Shown here one piece after another: positions 253-7,242 of a stretch of 44,557 nucleotides of DNA; within the stretch, counting starts at the first letter, position 1, and the number at the start of each line of letters is the position of its first letter. The stretch is from Phycisphaeraceae bacterium. Lineage in GTDB: Bacteria; Planctomycetota; Phycisphaerae; Phycisphaerales; Zrk34. The notes under the pieces are model-generated. The model did not search any database. It was given only the letters and a program-made list of their open reading frames with translations, and was not told the origin of the DNA. Position numbers and translations under genes: made by a program. The stretch is taken from NCBI GenBank assembly GCA_028282685.1, contig JANQHK010000150.1, positions 1-44,557 of the forward strand, written 5' to 3'.

Positions 253-1443
253 GTGACGTCCGATCTATCATCCCTATTGATGCCCTGGGAATCTCGAATT
301 ACCGACGAAAAACGACGCCGCATCGTGCTGGCGGCGCTGATGCTCGCTCTGCTGGGCGGCTCGACCGCTCTGGCCATGCTGCTGACCCGGGACCGCAACC
401 CCCGCTCTCCGGCCTATTGGCAGGACGAAAAACTGGGCTCATTTGAAATCCGCCGCCCCGCCAACTGGCGGATGACCACCCAGAGCGAACCGAGCGGACT
501 GGTGGTCGCGTTGGAAGATCCTTCATCCCTGCAACGCGAAATTTCGATTCGCCTGATCAACATCGGCCGGCCGATCGATCCGTTGGCGATCGTCGACAAT
601 TGGCTGGACAAGAATGCGCACCTGCAACTAAAAGGCCACAGGGCATTCCGCCTCGGGCCGGCGGTGGGCCATTATGCGACCGGCTATATGCATGTTCGCC
701 ACGGTTCGACGCAGATCATCCAGGGCCAGATCATACTGGATGTCACGCTGGACGGTCGCACCCATCTGTTATTGCATCTGACTCAACCGGGAACAACGCA
801 GGCCGATGTCCAGACGTTGATTGACATCGTCAGAACACTACGCGATACGCGCTTCGTCGCAGAGCGCCAATCCATCGAACTCGGCGAAGCGACGGTGAGC
901 ATTCCCGAGCACCTGGTGGCGTGGCGGCCGACCGATGAATCGCTGACCGGACGATACGATCTGACGCCGGACGGCGCCGGTCCGTGGGCGAAAGCGCGTT
1001 TCGTACGTCTGTCGCCGCGTCGGTTGAATCTGGCGCAGCTGCTGCCGGAAGCCCTGGCCGAATGGGGCGATGATGCGGAGCACGCCGAGCAGCTCGAGGC
1101 GATACGGGCGGCGTTTGAAGGACTGGACGATCCGGAGGAACTGATCCGTGGATTGCTGTGGATGATGCCGCGCCAGGTCAGCACGCATCAGGATCCGTCG
1201 CAACTGTACGCCGTCAGTGAACTGGCCGGCAAAACGGTGCATACGATGATACTGGAAGATGGGACGCGTTCACCGCTGTTTCGCGCGGTGTGGGTGGTGC
1301 GCGGCCCGGAGAAGGTGGTGGTGCTTATGGAGTTATTGGCGTCGAGGAAAGAGATTCCCACCGCTCTGCAAGCGGCCCGGAGCGTGGTGGAGCAGTTGCA
1401 TTGGACCGTTCAGGAAAACCGCGATCAGGAAACGCAACCATGA
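253..1443 (+). CDS. Membrane-anchored protein of unknown function
   Basis: I do not recognise this 396-residue protein. It has a short cytoplasmic N-terminus rich in Arg/Lys (TDEKRRR), one clear membrane helix at about residues 24-44, and a long soluble remainder that should lie outside the cytoplasmic membrane. The soluble part has beta-rich segments such as GSFEIRRPANWRM and DGRTHLLLHLTQPG but no catalytic motif I can name. The GTG at 253 has no good ribosome-binding site; the ATG at 280 (MPWESR) is an alternative. The stop overlaps the start of the next gene by four bases (ATGA, 1440-1443), so the two are probably translated together and may act together at the envelope. Confidence 0.75.
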   Translation: MTSDLSSLLMPWESRITDEKRRRIVLAALMLALLGGSTALAMLLTRDRNPRSPAYWQDEKLGSFEIRRPANWRMTTQSEPSGLVVALEDPSSLQREISIRLINIGRPIDPLAIVDNWLDKNAHLQLKGHRAFRLGPAVGHYATGYMHVRHGSTQIIQGQIILDVTLDGRTHLLLHLTQPGTTQADVQTLIDIVRTLRDTRFVAERQSIELGEATVSIPEHLVAWRPTDESLTGRYDLTPDGAGPWAKARFVRLSPRRLNLAQLLPEALAEWGDDAEHAEQLEAIRAAFEGLDDPEELIRGLLWMMPRQVSTHQDPSQLYAVSELAGKTVHTMILEDGTRSPLFRAVWVVRGPEKVVVLMELLASRKEIPTALQAARSVVEQLHWTVQENRDQETQP

Positions 1444-2738
1444 TGCAATGTCGCATTGCCATAGCGGAACTGGCTCTTCTGGTGGTGCTGATCGGCGCCG
1501 CCGCGACCGGCGCGCGTGAACTGGACGAGACGCGCTGGCGTGATAACGCCTACGGGCTGTCGCTGCGGCCGCCGGTGGGCACGCAACTGATCGAACAAAC
1601 CGGCGACACCTACCTGGTGCGGATTCTCGATCGCCAGGGCAGGTTCCAGATCGCCGCTTCGGTCAAGCGCTCGCGGAAAGCGCTGACGATGAATGAAACC
1701 GTCACTTCCATCACCGAGCAGATGTACCATGCGCAGCCGACCGTCTCGCGCACCGAGCCGGAGAACAGACAGGTGGCTGGGCGTGAGGCGGCGGTGATGT
1801 ATTTCACGTATCCGCAGCCGGCCAAGGGACCGGACGTGGTCGTGGGCTATTGCGTGGTTCGCATGGATGCGAAGTCGTTCGCGGTGCTGGAGCTGCACTG
1901 CTCGACGGAGGAAGGCGAAACCCACCGCGCCATGTTCAAGAAGGTGATCGGCAGCATGGAACTGGCCGACCAGCGCGAACTGGCCAAGCAGCGCGCCAAG
2001 GCCATCGAACGCGCCACGCAATGGCTCGGCCGTACCCGATCACCGGAGAAAATGAAGGAACTGCGCGCGCGGTTGCGCGACAGCCAATACTTTCGCATTG
2101 TCGATGGAACCCAAGACATCGGTTACATGCGCATCCACCAGGCCACCGAAACGATCGATCTGCGCAGCAAGAATCAGCAGGGCATCCGGGTGGAAATCCA
2201 GTCCCGACTGGTCAAGTCCGACCGCTCGACCATCGATACGCTGGCAAAATTTTTTCTCTCCGACGACGACACCACAGAGCTGTGGACCGTGGCCACCACG
2301 CTGCGGCAGCCCGCACCCAATCGCCCCGAGCCGATCAAGCAGACCTTCACGGAAACGGGCCTGCGCAGCGGCATGAACATCAACATCACGGTGAACGGGC
2401 CGCGCGGCGCCGAGCAGTTGCAGTTCGAGCAGCCGAAGCGCGGCTACCTTTCTCAGGTGGAGGCGAAGCTTCTGCCGCTGATGATGCCGGCCGATCGCGC
2501 CGCGACCTACGGCTTCTACTGGTACAACAGCGCGACCAACAAGATGACCTATCGCACCGAGCAGGTGACGCCGACGCTCAACGGTTTCGTGATTACCACG
2601 CGGCTGGGTCCCAACGCCCCGGCCCTGCGCGCCACATACAACGCCGAGCGGTTGCTGGTCGAGCAGCAACTGGGTGCCGAGCGCAAGCTGGTCGCCTCGG
2701 ACAAACAGACGATCCTGCGTCTGTGGCGGCATCGTTAA
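1440..2738 (+). CDS. Exported protein of unknown function
   Basis: 432 residues. The start at 1440 overlaps the preceding stop by four bases, and gives a signal peptide: a short N-region, a hydrophobic core ELALLVVLIGAAA and a likely cleavage near residue 24 (ATGA|RE). An upstream in-frame extension to 1290 exists but overlaps the previous gene and lacks a ribosome site. The mature part starts with a segment (residues 28-170) of the same flavour as the preceding protein (short YGLSLRPP and VYF-type strands), followed by a charged helical stretch around 175-215 and a C-terminal beta-rich region. No known domain recognised. Context suggests a co-translated envelope pair with the gene at 253. 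Confidence 0.8.
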   Translation: MMQCRIAIAELALLVVLIGAAATGARELDETRWRDNAYGLSLRPPVGTQLIEQTGDTYLVRILDRQGRFQIAASVKRSRKALTMNETVTSITEQMYHAQPTVSRTEPENRQVAGREAAVMYFTYPQPAKGPDVVVGYCVVRMDAKSFAVLELHCSTEEGETHRAMFKKVIGSMELADQRELAKQRAKAIERATQWLGRTRSPEKMKELRARLRDSQYFRIVDGTQDIGYMRIHQATETIDLRSKNQQGIRVEIQSRLVKSDRSTIDTLAKFFLSDDDTTELWTVATTLRQPAPNRPEPIKQTFTETGLRSGMNINITVNGPRGAEQLQFEQPKRGYLSQVEAKLLPLMMPADRAATYGFYWYNSATNKMTYRTEQVTPTLNGFVITTRLGPNAPALRATYNAERLLVEQQLGAERKLVASDKQTILRLWRHR

Positions 2739-2857: not shown

Positions 2858-5566
2858 ATGCCCAGTATCAGTTACGACGGACAATCGTTCATCGCCGACG
2901 GCCGACGGCTCTGGCCGATCGGCGGCGTCATGGATTACGCGCGCATTCCACATGAATTATGGCGCGATCGATTGAGCGCGATGCGGCAGGCCGGGCTGAA
3001 TACCCTCTGCACACACGTCTTCTGGAGCTACCACGAGCCGCAACCCGGCACATTCCGATTCGAGGGGCGGGCCGACCTGCGGCGCTTCGTCGAACTGGCC
3101 GCGGAACAACAGCTGTGGGTCATCCTGCGCCCCGGGCCGTATGTCGGGGCGGGATGGGATTTCGGTGGTTTGCCCCCGTGGTTGCTCGAACGGCAGGACA
3201 TGAAACTACGCCAGGGTGATCCGGCGTATCTTCAGGCCGCGGCCGGATACCTGAATGCGGTGATGAAGCAGGTGCAGGATTTCCAGGCGACGCGCGGCGG
3301 GCCGATCCTCGCCGTGCAGAATGAGCACCACTGGTTCTGCCACAACGATGAGCAGGCCGACAGCTACCTCAATCAGATCACACGCTATCTGCGTGAAGCC
3401 GGCTGCCGCGTGCCAATTTTCAATACCAACAACCTCTGGCAGCCCGTCGACGGGACACTCGATGCGTGGTCCGGCGGGGAAGAACCGCTGACGATCAGCC
3501 GGCAACTCGGCGTGGTGCATCCCAATGCGCCGCGTCTGCTGACCGATCTGCCGATCACTCGGGCGACGCATTGGGGCAGGCACGCCCCCGAGCCGCTCAC
3601 ACCCGGGCAGGCGATGCGCCGGCTGTGCCAAGCCACCGCAGGCGGTGCGTCGATCATCTTTCAGCCATTCCACGGCGGAACCAACTTCGGTTTCGACGCC
3701 GGCTGCGAAAGCGACGATACCGCCCTGACTACCGCGCACCTGCCCGATGCGCCGCTCGGCCAGGCCGGACAGCGCAGCGAAGTGTACGATGCGATCAAGC
3801 GTTTTGCCGTCTTTCTGTCTCGTCATCCCCGGCTGTTATCCAGTCTGCAGGTGGTGGATCAACACACCATTGCCGACACGGGCGTCAGCGTGGTGCAACT
3901 CAACAGCCCTCACGGCAAACTCGTGATCGTGCTGAAAAGCGACCAATGCAAACCGCGCAGCACCAAACTGCTCACTCCCGACGGGCGGTCACTGACTGTT
4001 CACTTCGGACACGACCTGGCCGCGTGGACCGTCCTCGATGCCTCTCTTGACGGGCTGGCCACACTCGACCGGACCAACCTGCGCCCGTGGGCATTTCTCG
4101 ACCGGCGCTTGCTCGTCCTGTTCGGCCCGGCGCGCACCGAAGCAACGGTCTGCATCGACGGCGCCACGCTGAGCGAAACCGTCCCCGCCGGAATCAAACC
4201 GTTAATCGTCCAACACCGGGAACTGACGGTCTGCATCTGCAACGAATCCCAGATCGACTCGGCTTACATCCGCGAGGAACGGTTGTACCTGGGCATCAAT
4301 GGTTTCGATGCCGAGGGCAATCCGCTGCGGCGCGGCAATGCGGCGTCGTATCCGGTGATTGAACCCGACGGGACCATCCGGCGCGAGCGTTTCAGCGGCG
4401 CCGCGTCCAAGCCCACCGCACCGCGTCTGGGGAAATGGCGCGCCGCGACGCGTGAAACTTACGTGAATGGCTCGGCCTTGCGCTTTGCCGCCATCGCCGG
4501 GCCGCGAGCGCTCGAGCAATGCGCCACCGATTTCGGTTACGGCTGGTACCGATTGCGCCTGCAAAGCAGCGCGGCAAAAAAAGTCAACCTCATGGCTCCC
4601 CTTGCCTCCGATCGTCTGCACCTTTACCAGCAGGGCAAACTGCAATCCGTGCTGGGATTCGGGCCCAGCGCCACCTCGCCGAATCAACCGCTGCCGATCC
4701 AGCTCCAGGCCGGGCAGACCGACCTGGTCGTTCTGGCCGACAACCTCGGCCGACTTCAGCACGGCAACCGGCTCGATCAGCGCAAGGGCCTGTTTGGTCA
4801 CCTGTATCATGTCAAGACCGTCCGTCTGCGGCGCGCCGAAGCGAAAACGGAACCGACTCCCGATGCGTTTGCTCTCAGCGGCTTCATCGAGGGCCTGCGC
4901 CGGGGGGACACCACACCGCGTCCGCATTACACCTGGACCATCGAACACCGCCGTCGGACGCCGTTGATTCTGACGTTGGCGGGCGAACGGCCGGCGGCTT
5001 TGGTCCTGCTCAACGAGAAGCCGATCGCGCTGGACGCCACGTCGGGCGTGAGCTTGCGGCTGGTGATCGAGCCCGATCAACTGAAGCGCGGCAAGAACCG
5101 CATTACGATGGCCTCGCTGGCCGATCCGCCCGCGCGTTACAATCCGAACAAGGTCGCTGCCCTTTACGAAGCCGTCGACACCCTGACGAATAAAGCCGGC
5201 TGGGCCTTTGCGCGATGGCAGATGCCCGATGAACACGAGTATGACGAGCTTCCGGCGCGCTCGCCCGCCGTGCCGACGTGGTTCGCCGCATCGTTCAGCA
5301 TCAGGAACACCGAGGCGCCGCTGTTCCTGGAACTGCACGGTGTGAGCAAGGGACAAGTCTACCTGAACGGATACAATGTCGGACGGTATTTCGTGGCCAC
5401 GGCAACGGGCAAGCACGTCCCGCCCCACCGCCGCGTTTACCTGCCCGAGCCCTGGCTGAACGCCGAGGGCGAAAACGAACTGATCCTCTTCGACGAGCAT
5501 GGCAAGACGCCGGACAAGTGCAAGCTGGTGTACGGGCGCGGAGAACCAAAGCGGAGTTCCCCATGA
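2858..5566 (+). CDS. GH35 beta-galactosidase-like protein with altered catalytic positions
   Basis: 902 residues, no signal peptide, so probably cytosolic. Residues 1-310 follow the glycoside hydrolase family 35 barrel: GLNTLCTHVFWSYHEPQPG, LRPGPYVGAGWDFGGLPPWL, GGPILAVQ and a THWG anchor at 237-240. The C-terminal part (about 800-900) has the family's jelly-roll signature GVSKGQVYLNGYNVGRYF and YLPEPWL. The catalytic positions differ: the nucleophile normally written TEF..GW..HWG is Asp230 here (TDLPITRATHWG), and the acid/base motif QxENEYG is QNEHHW at 154-159. It may be inactive, or use another chemistry. Start ATG 2858 follows the weak site AAGAGA, 120 bp after the previous gene; the stop overlaps hldD by four bases. 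Seen: residues. Known: GH35 mechanism. Inferred: altered activity. Confidence 0.82.
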   Translation: MPSISYDGQSFIADGRRLWPIGGVMDYARIPHELWRDRLSAMRQAGLNTLCTHVFWSYHEPQPGTFRFEGRADLRRFVELAAEQQLWVILRPGPYVGAGWDFGGLPPWLLERQDMKLRQGDPAYLQAAAGYLNAVMKQVQDFQATRGGPILAVQNEHHWFCHNDEQADSYLNQITRYLREAGCRVPIFNTNNLWQPVDGTLDAWSGGEEPLTISRQLGVVHPNAPRLLTDLPITRATHWGRHAPEPLTPGQAMRRLCQATAGGASIIFQPFHGGTNFGFDAGCESDDTALTTAHLPDAPLGQAGQRSEVYDAIKRFAVFLSRHPRLLSSLQVVDQHTIADTGVSVVQLNSPHGKLVIVLKSDQCKPRSTKLLTPDGRSLTVHFGHDLAAWTVLDASLDGLATLDRTNLRPWAFLDRRLLVLFGPARTEATVCIDGATLSETVPAGIKPLIVQHRELTVCICNESQIDSAYIREERLYLGINGFDAEGNPLRRGNAASYPVIEPDGTIRRERFSGAASKPTAPRLGKWRAATRETYVNGSALRFAAIAGPRALEQCATDFGYGWYRLRLQSSAAKKVNLMAPLASDRLHLYQQGKLQSVLGFGPSATSPNQPLPIQLQAGQTDLVVLADNLGRLQHGNRLDQRKGLFGHLYHVKTVRLRRAEAKTEPTPDAFALSGFIEGLRRGDTTPRPHYTWTIEHRRRTPLILTLAGERPAALVLLNEKPIALDATSGVSLRLVIEPDQLKRGKNRITMASLADPPARYNPNKVAALYEAVDTLTNKAGWAFARWQMPDEHEYDELPARSPAVPTWFAASFSIRNTEAPLFLELHGVSKGQVYLNGYNVGRYFVATATGKHVPPHRRVYLPEPWLNAEGENELILFDEHGKTPDKCKLVYGRGEPKRSSP

Positions 5567-6504
5567 TTCTGATCACCGGCGGAGCCGGATTCATCGGCAG
5601 CAACCTGGTCAAGGCGTTCAACGACGCCGGGCGCGATGACGTGGTGGTCTGCGACGATCTGACCGATGCGGCCAAGACGCCGAACCTCGCCGACCGGACC
5701 ATCGCCGACTATCTCGACGTGCAGGAACTGGCCCAGGGTCTGGCGGCGCAGACGCTCAACCTGCCCATCACCGCCGTCTGCCACCAGGGCGCCTGCACCG
5801 ACACGATGGAAAACAACGGCCGATACATGCTCGAAAACAACTACACCTTTTCCAAGCTGCTGTTCGACTGGGCAGCGGCGCGCCAATTGCCGTTTGTTTA
5901 CGCTTCGAGCGCCGCGGTGTACGGGGCGAGCCGCACGTTCACCGAGAAACCGGAGAACGAGTGTCCGCTCAACGTTTACGGATATTCCAAGCTGCTGTTC
6001 GATCAGTACGTCCGACGCCGGTTGAATGAGATCGAGTCCACGGTCGTCGGCTTGCGTTACTTCAACGTCTACGGCCCGCGCGAACAGCACAAGGGACGCA
6101 TGGCCTCGATGATCCACCAACTCCGCCAGCAGGTGTTGCAAACCGGCACGGCCCGGCTGTTCGAGGGGTTCGGCGGCTGCGGCCACGGTGGGCAGAAACG
6201 CGATTTCATTTACGTCGGCGATATCGTCGCCGCCAACCGTTACTTCCTCGAATCGTCCAAGCCGATCAAGGGCATCTTCAACGCCGGCACCGGCAAAGCG
6301 CGCACGTTCAACGATCTGGCCAACGCGGTCATCGACACCCTGGGCTGCGGCCGCATCGAGTACATCCCCTTCCCCACGGAACTGGTCGGCAAGTACCAGT
6401 CGTACACCCAGGCCGACACCGCCAACCTCCGCGCCGCCGGATTCCAACTGCCGTTCACCGAACTGGAGGACGGCGTACGGCAGACAATGCAATCCGAACC
6501 GTAA
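5563..6504 (+). CDS. hldD: ADP-L-glycero-D-manno-heptose 6-epimerase
   Basis: 313 residues, the usual length for HldD/RfaD, which turns ADP-D-glycero-D-manno-heptose into the L-glycero form for the lipopolysaccharide inner core. It is an extended short-chain dehydrogenase: NAD(P)-binding GGAGFIGSN at residues 6-14, the family signature HQGACTDTMENN, the catalytic YGYSK, GPREQHKGRMAS, RDFIYVGD, and the C-terminal FPTELVGKYQSYTQAD. Its ATG overlaps the stop of the GH35-like gene (ATGA, 5563-5566), so the two are translationally coupled. No other heptose or Kdo gene is in the window. The gene is good evidence that this organism makes a heptose-containing LPS. Confidence 0.95.
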   Translation: MILITGGAGFIGSNLVKAFNDAGRDDVVVCDDLTDAAKTPNLADRTIADYLDVQELAQGLAAQTLNLPITAVCHQGACTDTMENNGRYMLENNYTFSKLLFDWAAARQLPFVYASSAAVYGASRTFTEKPENECPLNVYGYSKLLFDQYVRRRLNEIESTVVGLRYFNVYGPREQHKGRMASMIHQLRQQVLQTGTARLFEGFGGCGHGGQKRDFIYVGDIVAANRYFLESSKPIKGIFNAGTGKARTFNDLANAVIDTLGCGRIEYIPFPTELVGKYQSYTQADTANLRAAGFQLPFTELEDGVRQTMQSEP

Positions 6505-6612: not shown

Positions 6613-7035
6613 TTACACCAGGGCGTTCAGCGCATCGCCGGTGGAAGCGGGCATCGCCTGCGAGCCGTCCGAGGCATACGTCATCGACAGACTGGCCTGG
6701 AACGACATCGACATCGCCGTGCCGCCCCCTCCGCCGCCGAGCATTGCAAGCAGGTCGGTGGCGGTCTGCATCATTTGCTCATCGTCTTCACCGAGCAGCA
6801 CCGACATCACCAGCAACAGGAAGAGCATCTCCAGCGACTTCTCGAGATCGAGACTGTCGGTGGCGCCAATGCCGGACGCGGCGCCAATGCCGGACGCGGC
6901 GCCAATGCCGGACGCGGCGCCCTCGAGCGAGAGCAACTCGCCGATCGAACCGGTTGAGGACGTCACGCCGGAAGTGCTGTCCATGTACATGGCCGAGTAG
7001 GAGGCACTGTATTCGATGGATGAAATCTGGCTCAT
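6613..7035 (-). CDS. Small Arg-free, Met/Ser/Gly-rich protein with tandem hexapeptide repeats
   Basis: 140 residues, not recognised. The start ATG at 7035 follows a good ribosome site (CAGGGAGAAAGACC then ATG) and the gene ends before a strong terminator, so it is very likely real. The N-terminus is rich in Ser, Tyr and Met (SSIEYSASYSAMYMDS), then come three copies of GAASGI (18-bp DNA repeat), a hydrophobic helix MLFLLLVMSVLLG, an acidic GEDDEQ segment, a second helix ending in a run of six Gly, and a Ser/Thr/Met-rich tail. It has no Arg, Cys, Trp or His and only one Lys, with about 12 Met. That composition suggests a secreted, surface or membrane-inserting protein rather than an enzyme, but no signal peptide is obvious. 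Confidence 0.75.
   Translation of the reverse strand: MSQISSIEYSASYSAMYMDSTSGVTSSTGSIGELLSLEGAASGIGAASGIGAASGIGATDSLDLEKSLEMLFLLLVMSVLLGEDDEQMMQTATDLLAMLGGGGGGTAMSMSFQASLSMTYASDGSQAMPASTGDALNALV
6862..6921 (-). repeat. 18-bp perfect tandem repeat, three copies plus a partial
   Basis: The unit ggcgccaatgccggacgc occurs at 6862-6879, 6880-6897 and 6898-6915, followed by the first six bases of a fourth copy. It is in frame and encodes three GAASGI/GIGAAS hexapeptides of the small repeat protein. Perfect identity points to recent slippage, so copy number may vary between strains. Confidence 0.95.
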
Positions 7036-7242
7036 GGTCTTTCTCCCTGGGGATATCGCTGACCAAGAACCAGCAGCGGGCATACCTGGGGCATGCCAAA
7101 CAACTGAGCCGCGCTAAGCCATGCAGAGACAGCCGTTAACGTCGATTAGCGAATGATGGGAATGTAACGATTGTAGCGCGTGGTGAGTTTTTCGATTCAT
7201 CCGCGATGCATCGTCTGGCCCGACTGCACTCCACCCAGCGCC

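Follow-up and report, generated by a model that had tools for sequence, protein, structure and literature searches.

A GH35-fold protein of Phycisphaeraceae as a putative cytosolic pseudoenzyme from a family with repeated active-site loss

The closest described systems are the GH35 beta-galactosidases, represented by human GLB1 (3thc), B. thetaiotaomicron 3d3a and BT0290 (6eon), and the enzyme of Desulfurococcus amylolyticus (8qqh). The roles of Tyr83, Cys127, Glu129, Glu188, Glu268, Tyr270 and Tyr306 (GLB1 numbering) have been described, including the bond of Cys127 to the axial O4 of galactose (PMC6566704). The human elastin-binding protein, an inactive splice variant of GLB1, is a GH35 derivative that is reported to keep a binding role; it stems from an active gene through alternative splicing, whereas in the case reported here the only GH35 gene of a bacterium has itself degenerated by substitution. 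Klotho and the chitinase-like lectins are glycosidase pseudoenzymes. Together with heparanase-2 they have kept a glycosidase fold, lost the activity and serve in binding or regulation; most of them exist as paralogues alongside a copy that is still active. Our case resembles them in the retained fold and the predicted loss, but concerns a single-copy orthologue with many parallel losses. Heparanase-2 is described as a glycosidase pseudoenzyme in PMC12406646. Finally, GlmA has a GH35-like barrel with a nucleophile position that is unconventional in the sequence alignment (PMC6566704), as here, but it is active and keeps two catalytic Glu (PMC6566704), and no such pair was found in our protein.

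The gene lies in a stretch of 44,557 nucleotides from a Phycisphaeraceae bacterium (hereafter the window). Its product shares with the GH35 beta-galactosidases the Pfam family and the barrel/beta-domain architecture, but lacks the acid/base, the nucleophile, most sugar contacts and a signal peptide. We consider it quite probable that it is a cytosolic GH35-fold pseudoenzyme whose function is independent of the pocket, likely the binding of a partner. New in this, as far as sequences can tell, would be a bacterial GH35 pseudoenzyme family with parallel active-site loss in a single-copy gene; our literature search on GH35 pseudoenzymes found no paper, which is weak evidence of novelty as subscription papers were beyond its reach.

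Gene, fold and location of the product

The window protein scores 225 bits against Pfam PF01301 (cut-off 27, E = 2.4e-66), and its AlphaFold2 model (mean pLDDT 93.2, pTM 0.93) has the barrel and beta-domain fold of GH35. This model matches GH35 structures along its full length (VIA Z 33-40), namely BT0290 (40.1), the Desulfurococcus enzyme (38.2 over 809 residues) and human GLB1 (33.4). The first-pass annotation, made from the sequence of the window, had stated that the fold and the C-terminal jelly roll were kept; both statements hold, the latter through a PF21467 match and strong conservation in members of the family with intact and with lost pockets (defined below). Against the NCBIfam equivalog NF041127 (GlmA exo-beta-D-glucosaminidase) the protein scores 108 bits, the cut-off being 1500. 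Met1 is conserved among family members, the barrel begins directly at the N-terminus, and 42 of 129 members have an in-frame stop at most 15 codons upstream of Met1, which leaves no space for a signal peptide there; a cytosolic location is therefore probable.

Table 1. Coordinates of the features discussed, with the residues of the window protein and, where aligned, of human GLB1
Feature	Position	Strand	Basis
Upstream gene, ca. 432 aa, no family match (Pfam, NCBIfam)	1440..2738	+	29-40% identity in 6 orthologous loci
Gene of the putative GH35-like pseudoenzyme	2858..5566	+	ATG 2858, stop ends 5566; 902 aa, no signal peptide
GH35 TIM-barrel domain (PF01301), residues 10-316	2885..3805	+	Pfam match, AlphaFold2 model
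His53 at pocket position Tyr83	3014..3016	+	alignment
Gly97-Ala98-Gly99 at Cys127-Ala128-Glu129	3146..3154	+	alignment
QNEHHW (154-159), degenerate QxENEY; His157/His158 replace Asn187/Glu188	3317..3334	+	alignment
Asp230 at nucleophile position (Glu268)	3545-3547	+	ten residues ahead of Gly of HWG; alignment
Pro232 at Tyr270, same segment as Asp230	3545..3553	+	alignment
Gln269 at pocket position Tyr306	3662..3664	+	alignment
His294 and Pro296 at pocket positions Tyr331 and Tyr333	3737..3745	+	alignment
BetaGal_ABD_1 (PF21317), first all-beta domain	4502..4807	+	Pfam match
BetaGal_gal-bd (PF21467), C-terminal galactose-binding-like jelly roll	5273..5476	+	Pfam match
hldD, ADP-glyceromanno-heptose 6-epimerase	5563..6504	+	TIGR02197, 386 bits (cut-off 275)

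Catalytic pair and sugar contacts

In the alignment with human GLB1, the acid/base Glu188 at the end of strand 4 falls on His158, the nucleophile Glu268 at the end of strand 7 on Asp230, and Glu186 on Glu156. The translation and this alignment bear out what the first-pass annotation had read at residues 154-159 and ten residues before the HWG glycine. The loss extends to the galactose contacts: Tyr83, Cys127, Glu129, Asn187, Tyr306 and Tyr333 (of which we take Asn187 and Tyr333 to touch galactose) have become H53, G97, G99, H157, Q269 and P296. The HGGTNF loop is retained, so that the earlier claim of preserved substrate-loop motifs stands for this loop and F279, and fails for most sugar-contacting residues.

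The register of the alignment is fixed by a sister protein from another member of the Phycisphaeraceae (L031), 49% identical to the window protein over 897 positions and gapless at both motifs. It carries QNENEW and TELWPGWFDAWG, with both catalytic Glu present, where the window protein has QNEHHW and TDLPITRATHWG; residue 158 is thus the acid/base site, residue 230 the nucleophile site, and Glu156 the first Glu of ENE. The first-pass annotation had offered two readings, a gapless one in which the catalytic Glu becomes His158 and one with a two-residue deletion by which Glu156 could still serve: the former is right, and the latter is ruled out by the sister alignment. All 110 of the 110 members compared have Glu156, intact and degenerate alike, and it is also conserved GH35-wide; being invariant whatever the state of the site, it is probably a structural residue and not a replacement catalyst. 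With both catalytic Glu absent, the normal double-displacement hydrolysis of GH35 would be impossible for the window protein. That it is an inactive homologue, as had been proposed among other options, is strongly supported by the replaced catalytic pair and sugar contacts, and we expect inactivity in vitro.

Could the protein still be an active glycosidase using unusual residues, with Asp230 as nucleophile, Glu156 or another residue as acid/base, or catalysis relocated as in archaeal GlmA? Asp230 is acidic, Glu156 is nearly invariant, and the nucleophile of the GH35-like GlmA does align elsewhere (PMC6566704). However, Glu156 is just as invariant beside intact Glu188 and Glu268, the motif has no deletion, the substrate contacts have gone along with the catalytic pair, and other lost members carry G, S, N, A or Q at the nucleophile position. 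Relocated catalytic acids were also looked for, and rejected: no newly gained acidic residue is strongly conserved in the barrel core of the lost members, weak acidic rises being found at residues 37 and 209 and other rises outside the barrel. We therefore hold an active glycosidase to be very unlikely, and the "different chemistry" once suggested for this protein is disfavoured by the missing acidic gain and by the slightly faster change of the former pocket.

Distribution of the family and repeated loss of the pocket

A search of the genome collection with the single protein gave no match; an alignment-based search gave 80 loci, nearly all in metagenome-assembled genomes (MAGs) labelled Phycisphaerae or Planctomycetota, and MAGs are nearly all of the genomes compared here. 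Of the 61 relatives searched at the outset, 47 gave matches, with paralogous GH35 matches counted among these. Full-length orthologues are spread across the class Phycisphaerae; outside it full-length matches are few, with two in the phylum sample, both from one family. Within the order, 89 of 121 genomes have a GH35 match, mostly exactly one, and most Phycisphaerales genomes have the window-type protein and no further GH35. The window genome itself contains no other GH35 and no separate GH42: its sole GH42 match is the window gene, which removes GH42 as a candidate substitute galactosidase there.

We called a pocket intact when both catalytic Glu were present and no more than one of five sugar contacts was missing, and lost otherwise. 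By this rule 29 of the 132 family members are intact and 103 lost, and 65 sequences carry none of the seven residues scored. Intermediates exist: L124 has a nearly whole pocket with Glu268 changed to Asp, L049 has lost both Glu and kept three Tyr, and in some lost members one catalytic Glu, or even the pair, survives where other pocket residues are missing. The homologue search proposed in the first-pass annotation thus establishes that the degenerate state is no isolated error; of the window protein's own substitutions, Asp at the nucleophile position is shared by 53 of the 103 lost members. The loss is broader than had been noted, as it concerns the whole pocket and is recurrent and order-wide. 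Automatic annotation would label more than 100 such proteins beta-galactosidase, which most of them very probably are not. A second group of families in the class (L117, L122, L124, L125, L127, L128) has its own losses and partial pockets, and is useful for ordering the steps of decay.

The trees were built from alignments without the pocket columns. For the intact/lost label, the IQ-TREE mixture-model tree calls for nine changes of state, seven of them forced by starred (well-supported) branches; the FastTree tree also calls for nine, six of them forced. A single lost clade is rejected, as forcing every lost Phycisphaerales row into one group lowers the log-likelihood by 604 units (p-AU 1.1e-6, an optimistic value because this group was chosen with the tree already in view). 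The window's family clade alone holds two intact and several lost members. Such change counts carry no direction; since the GH35 outgroup paralogues are all intact and repeated regain of the exact canonical pocket is implausible, loss is the sensible direction, and we infer that the changes ran from intact to lost.

One substitution stands out along the way. The change of Cys127 to Gly (Gly97 in the window protein, 3146-3148; column read across L002-L150) coincides with loss in about 6.5 of the 7 independent pairs compared (p ~0.016 by sign test), while Asp at the nucleophile position, though common, was not significant in the same test. It may be that decay prefers a certain route, or that Gly at the Cys127 site favours the pseudoenzyme state. 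On balance we lean towards a history, spanning a whole bacterial class, in which an ancestral non-catalytic function of this single-copy protein outweighs its catalytic one and the active site has in consequence been taken apart in parallel, at least seven times and by a route that is in part repeatable (Cys127 to Gly), with intact, intermediate and dead orthologues as the living outcome. Against the reading as a pseudoenzyme with a decayed pocket, the recurrence of Cys127 to Gly hints at some directed remodelling rather than pure decay, and the over-representation of Asp at the nucleophile position means that this site is not entirely free; the lost members that retain catalytic Glu, and the higher dN/dS of one lost pair given below, also count against it.

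Selection, neighbourhood and the retained function

Pairwise dN/dS is 0.035-0.23 in the degenerate groups, comparable to the 0.10-0.16 of intact pairs, with one exception, the lost pair L089/L109 (0.41). These values come from degenerate relatives, the window species having no relative close enough for a dN/dS of its own; read in this way, the family combines absent catalytic residues with retention under purifying selection, as a pseudoenzyme does. That the gene is a decaying pseudogene on its way out is scarcely credible: the catalytic site is gone, but the frame is open over 902 codons, the degenerate relatives are under strong purifying selection, the gene has been retained for long across families, and a complete fold is predicted with high confidence.

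Within the barrel, the ten pocket columns were compared with all others. Relative to the rest of the barrel they differ 1.18 times as often among 32 sister pairs with lost pockets, against 0.13 times among 10 intact pairs; this second value is biased low, since being called intact already requires part of the pocket to be identical. When 864 columns were ranked blind by how far their entropy rises from intact to lost, mainly active-site columns came out on top (E188, E268, Y83, Y306, Y331, Y333, Y270, E129 and N87 in GLB1 numbering); the five contacts and two Glu stand there by construction, whereas H281, D334, Y331, Y270, W273 and N87 lie outside the label. The old pocket might instead be a ligand-binding site of a receptor or sensor, with lineage-specific specificity and a variability that is adaptive and not relaxed. 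This would agree with pocket columns slightly faster than the barrel average, with the recurrence of Cys127 to Gly and with the frequent Asp at the nucleophile position. We think it unlikely all the same, because in lost members only Gly97 is conserved among the pocket residues, and a ratio of 1.18 is near the barrel average and no sign of positive selection. A carbohydrate binder working through the pocket, as the first-pass annotation had considered, is likewise disfavoured, since substitutions accumulate slightly faster in the former pocket than elsewhere in the barrel.

Purifying selection, a drifting pocket, the entropy ranking and the lack of a strongly conserved gained acid in the barrel core together argue that whatever function is retained works without the old pocket, and, as the rest of the protein is kept by selection while the active site is erased, a non-enzymatic job in the cell is probable. 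W159, R176, R179, E180, W194, W204, R215, Q216, R315, W390 and W527 are among the residues conserved in intact and lost Phycisphaerales and not in GH35 at large, and the C-terminal jelly roll is very conserved too; W159, E180, W204, R215, Q216, W390 and W527 lie outside the classical pocket. Shared by both states, these residues are what one would expect if a second, non-catalytic function had preceded the losses, and may form a partner surface. The pseudoenzyme reading that we prefer would then run as follows. The ancestor of the Phycisphaerae would have had a single-copy, probably catalytically competent GH35 glycosidase, with a second, non-catalytic function on surfaces outside the pocket; the catalytic pair and sugar contacts would have decayed lineage after lineage, the window's included, the scaffold being kept. 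Its present role would most likely be to bind a partner (a protein, or a sugar via the C-terminal jelly-roll domains) through the conserved non-pocket patches. The family is a natural replicated experiment, one gene with orthologues in which the site is intact, partial or erased, and this series allows a direct test of the path from enzyme to pseudoenzyme and of the hidden function that keeps the protein. It points to a conserved cytosolic role in the Phycisphaerales, a group with few characterised genes.

Gene order was searched for a partner, with neighbours clustered on calls from a GC3-based gene caller. The coupling to hldD proposed in the first-pass annotation is correct as to the ATGA overlap (5563-5566); a functional link was rejected, as hldD stands beside the GH35-like gene in none of the 29 orthologues with searched flanks. 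The upstream gene adjoins it only within the window's own family, being directly upstream in six other genomes. In many clustered loci the GH35-like gene, whether intact or lost, has a divergent TolC-like outer-membrane efflux gene as its neighbour (the TolC-like cluster spans 46 loci), and in some there is a HlyD-like gene as well; the other neighbours in the clustered loci are housekeeping genes, and no partner could be named. The TolC-like gene is seen, for example, at L074:297-2135 (minus strand), and many of the loci within L034-L109 have it in their upstream flank. In the window, positions 253-2738 hold two consecutive genes of about 396 and 432 aa that overlap at 1440-1443, neither with a Pfam or NCBIfam match over the cut-off. 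Further downstream, at 6862-6921, a perfect 18-bp tandem repeat (GGCGCCAATGCCGGACGC, 3.3 copies) falls within open frames that overlap each other; read in the minus-strand frame 6613-7083, it gives the repeated six-residue unit AASGIG.
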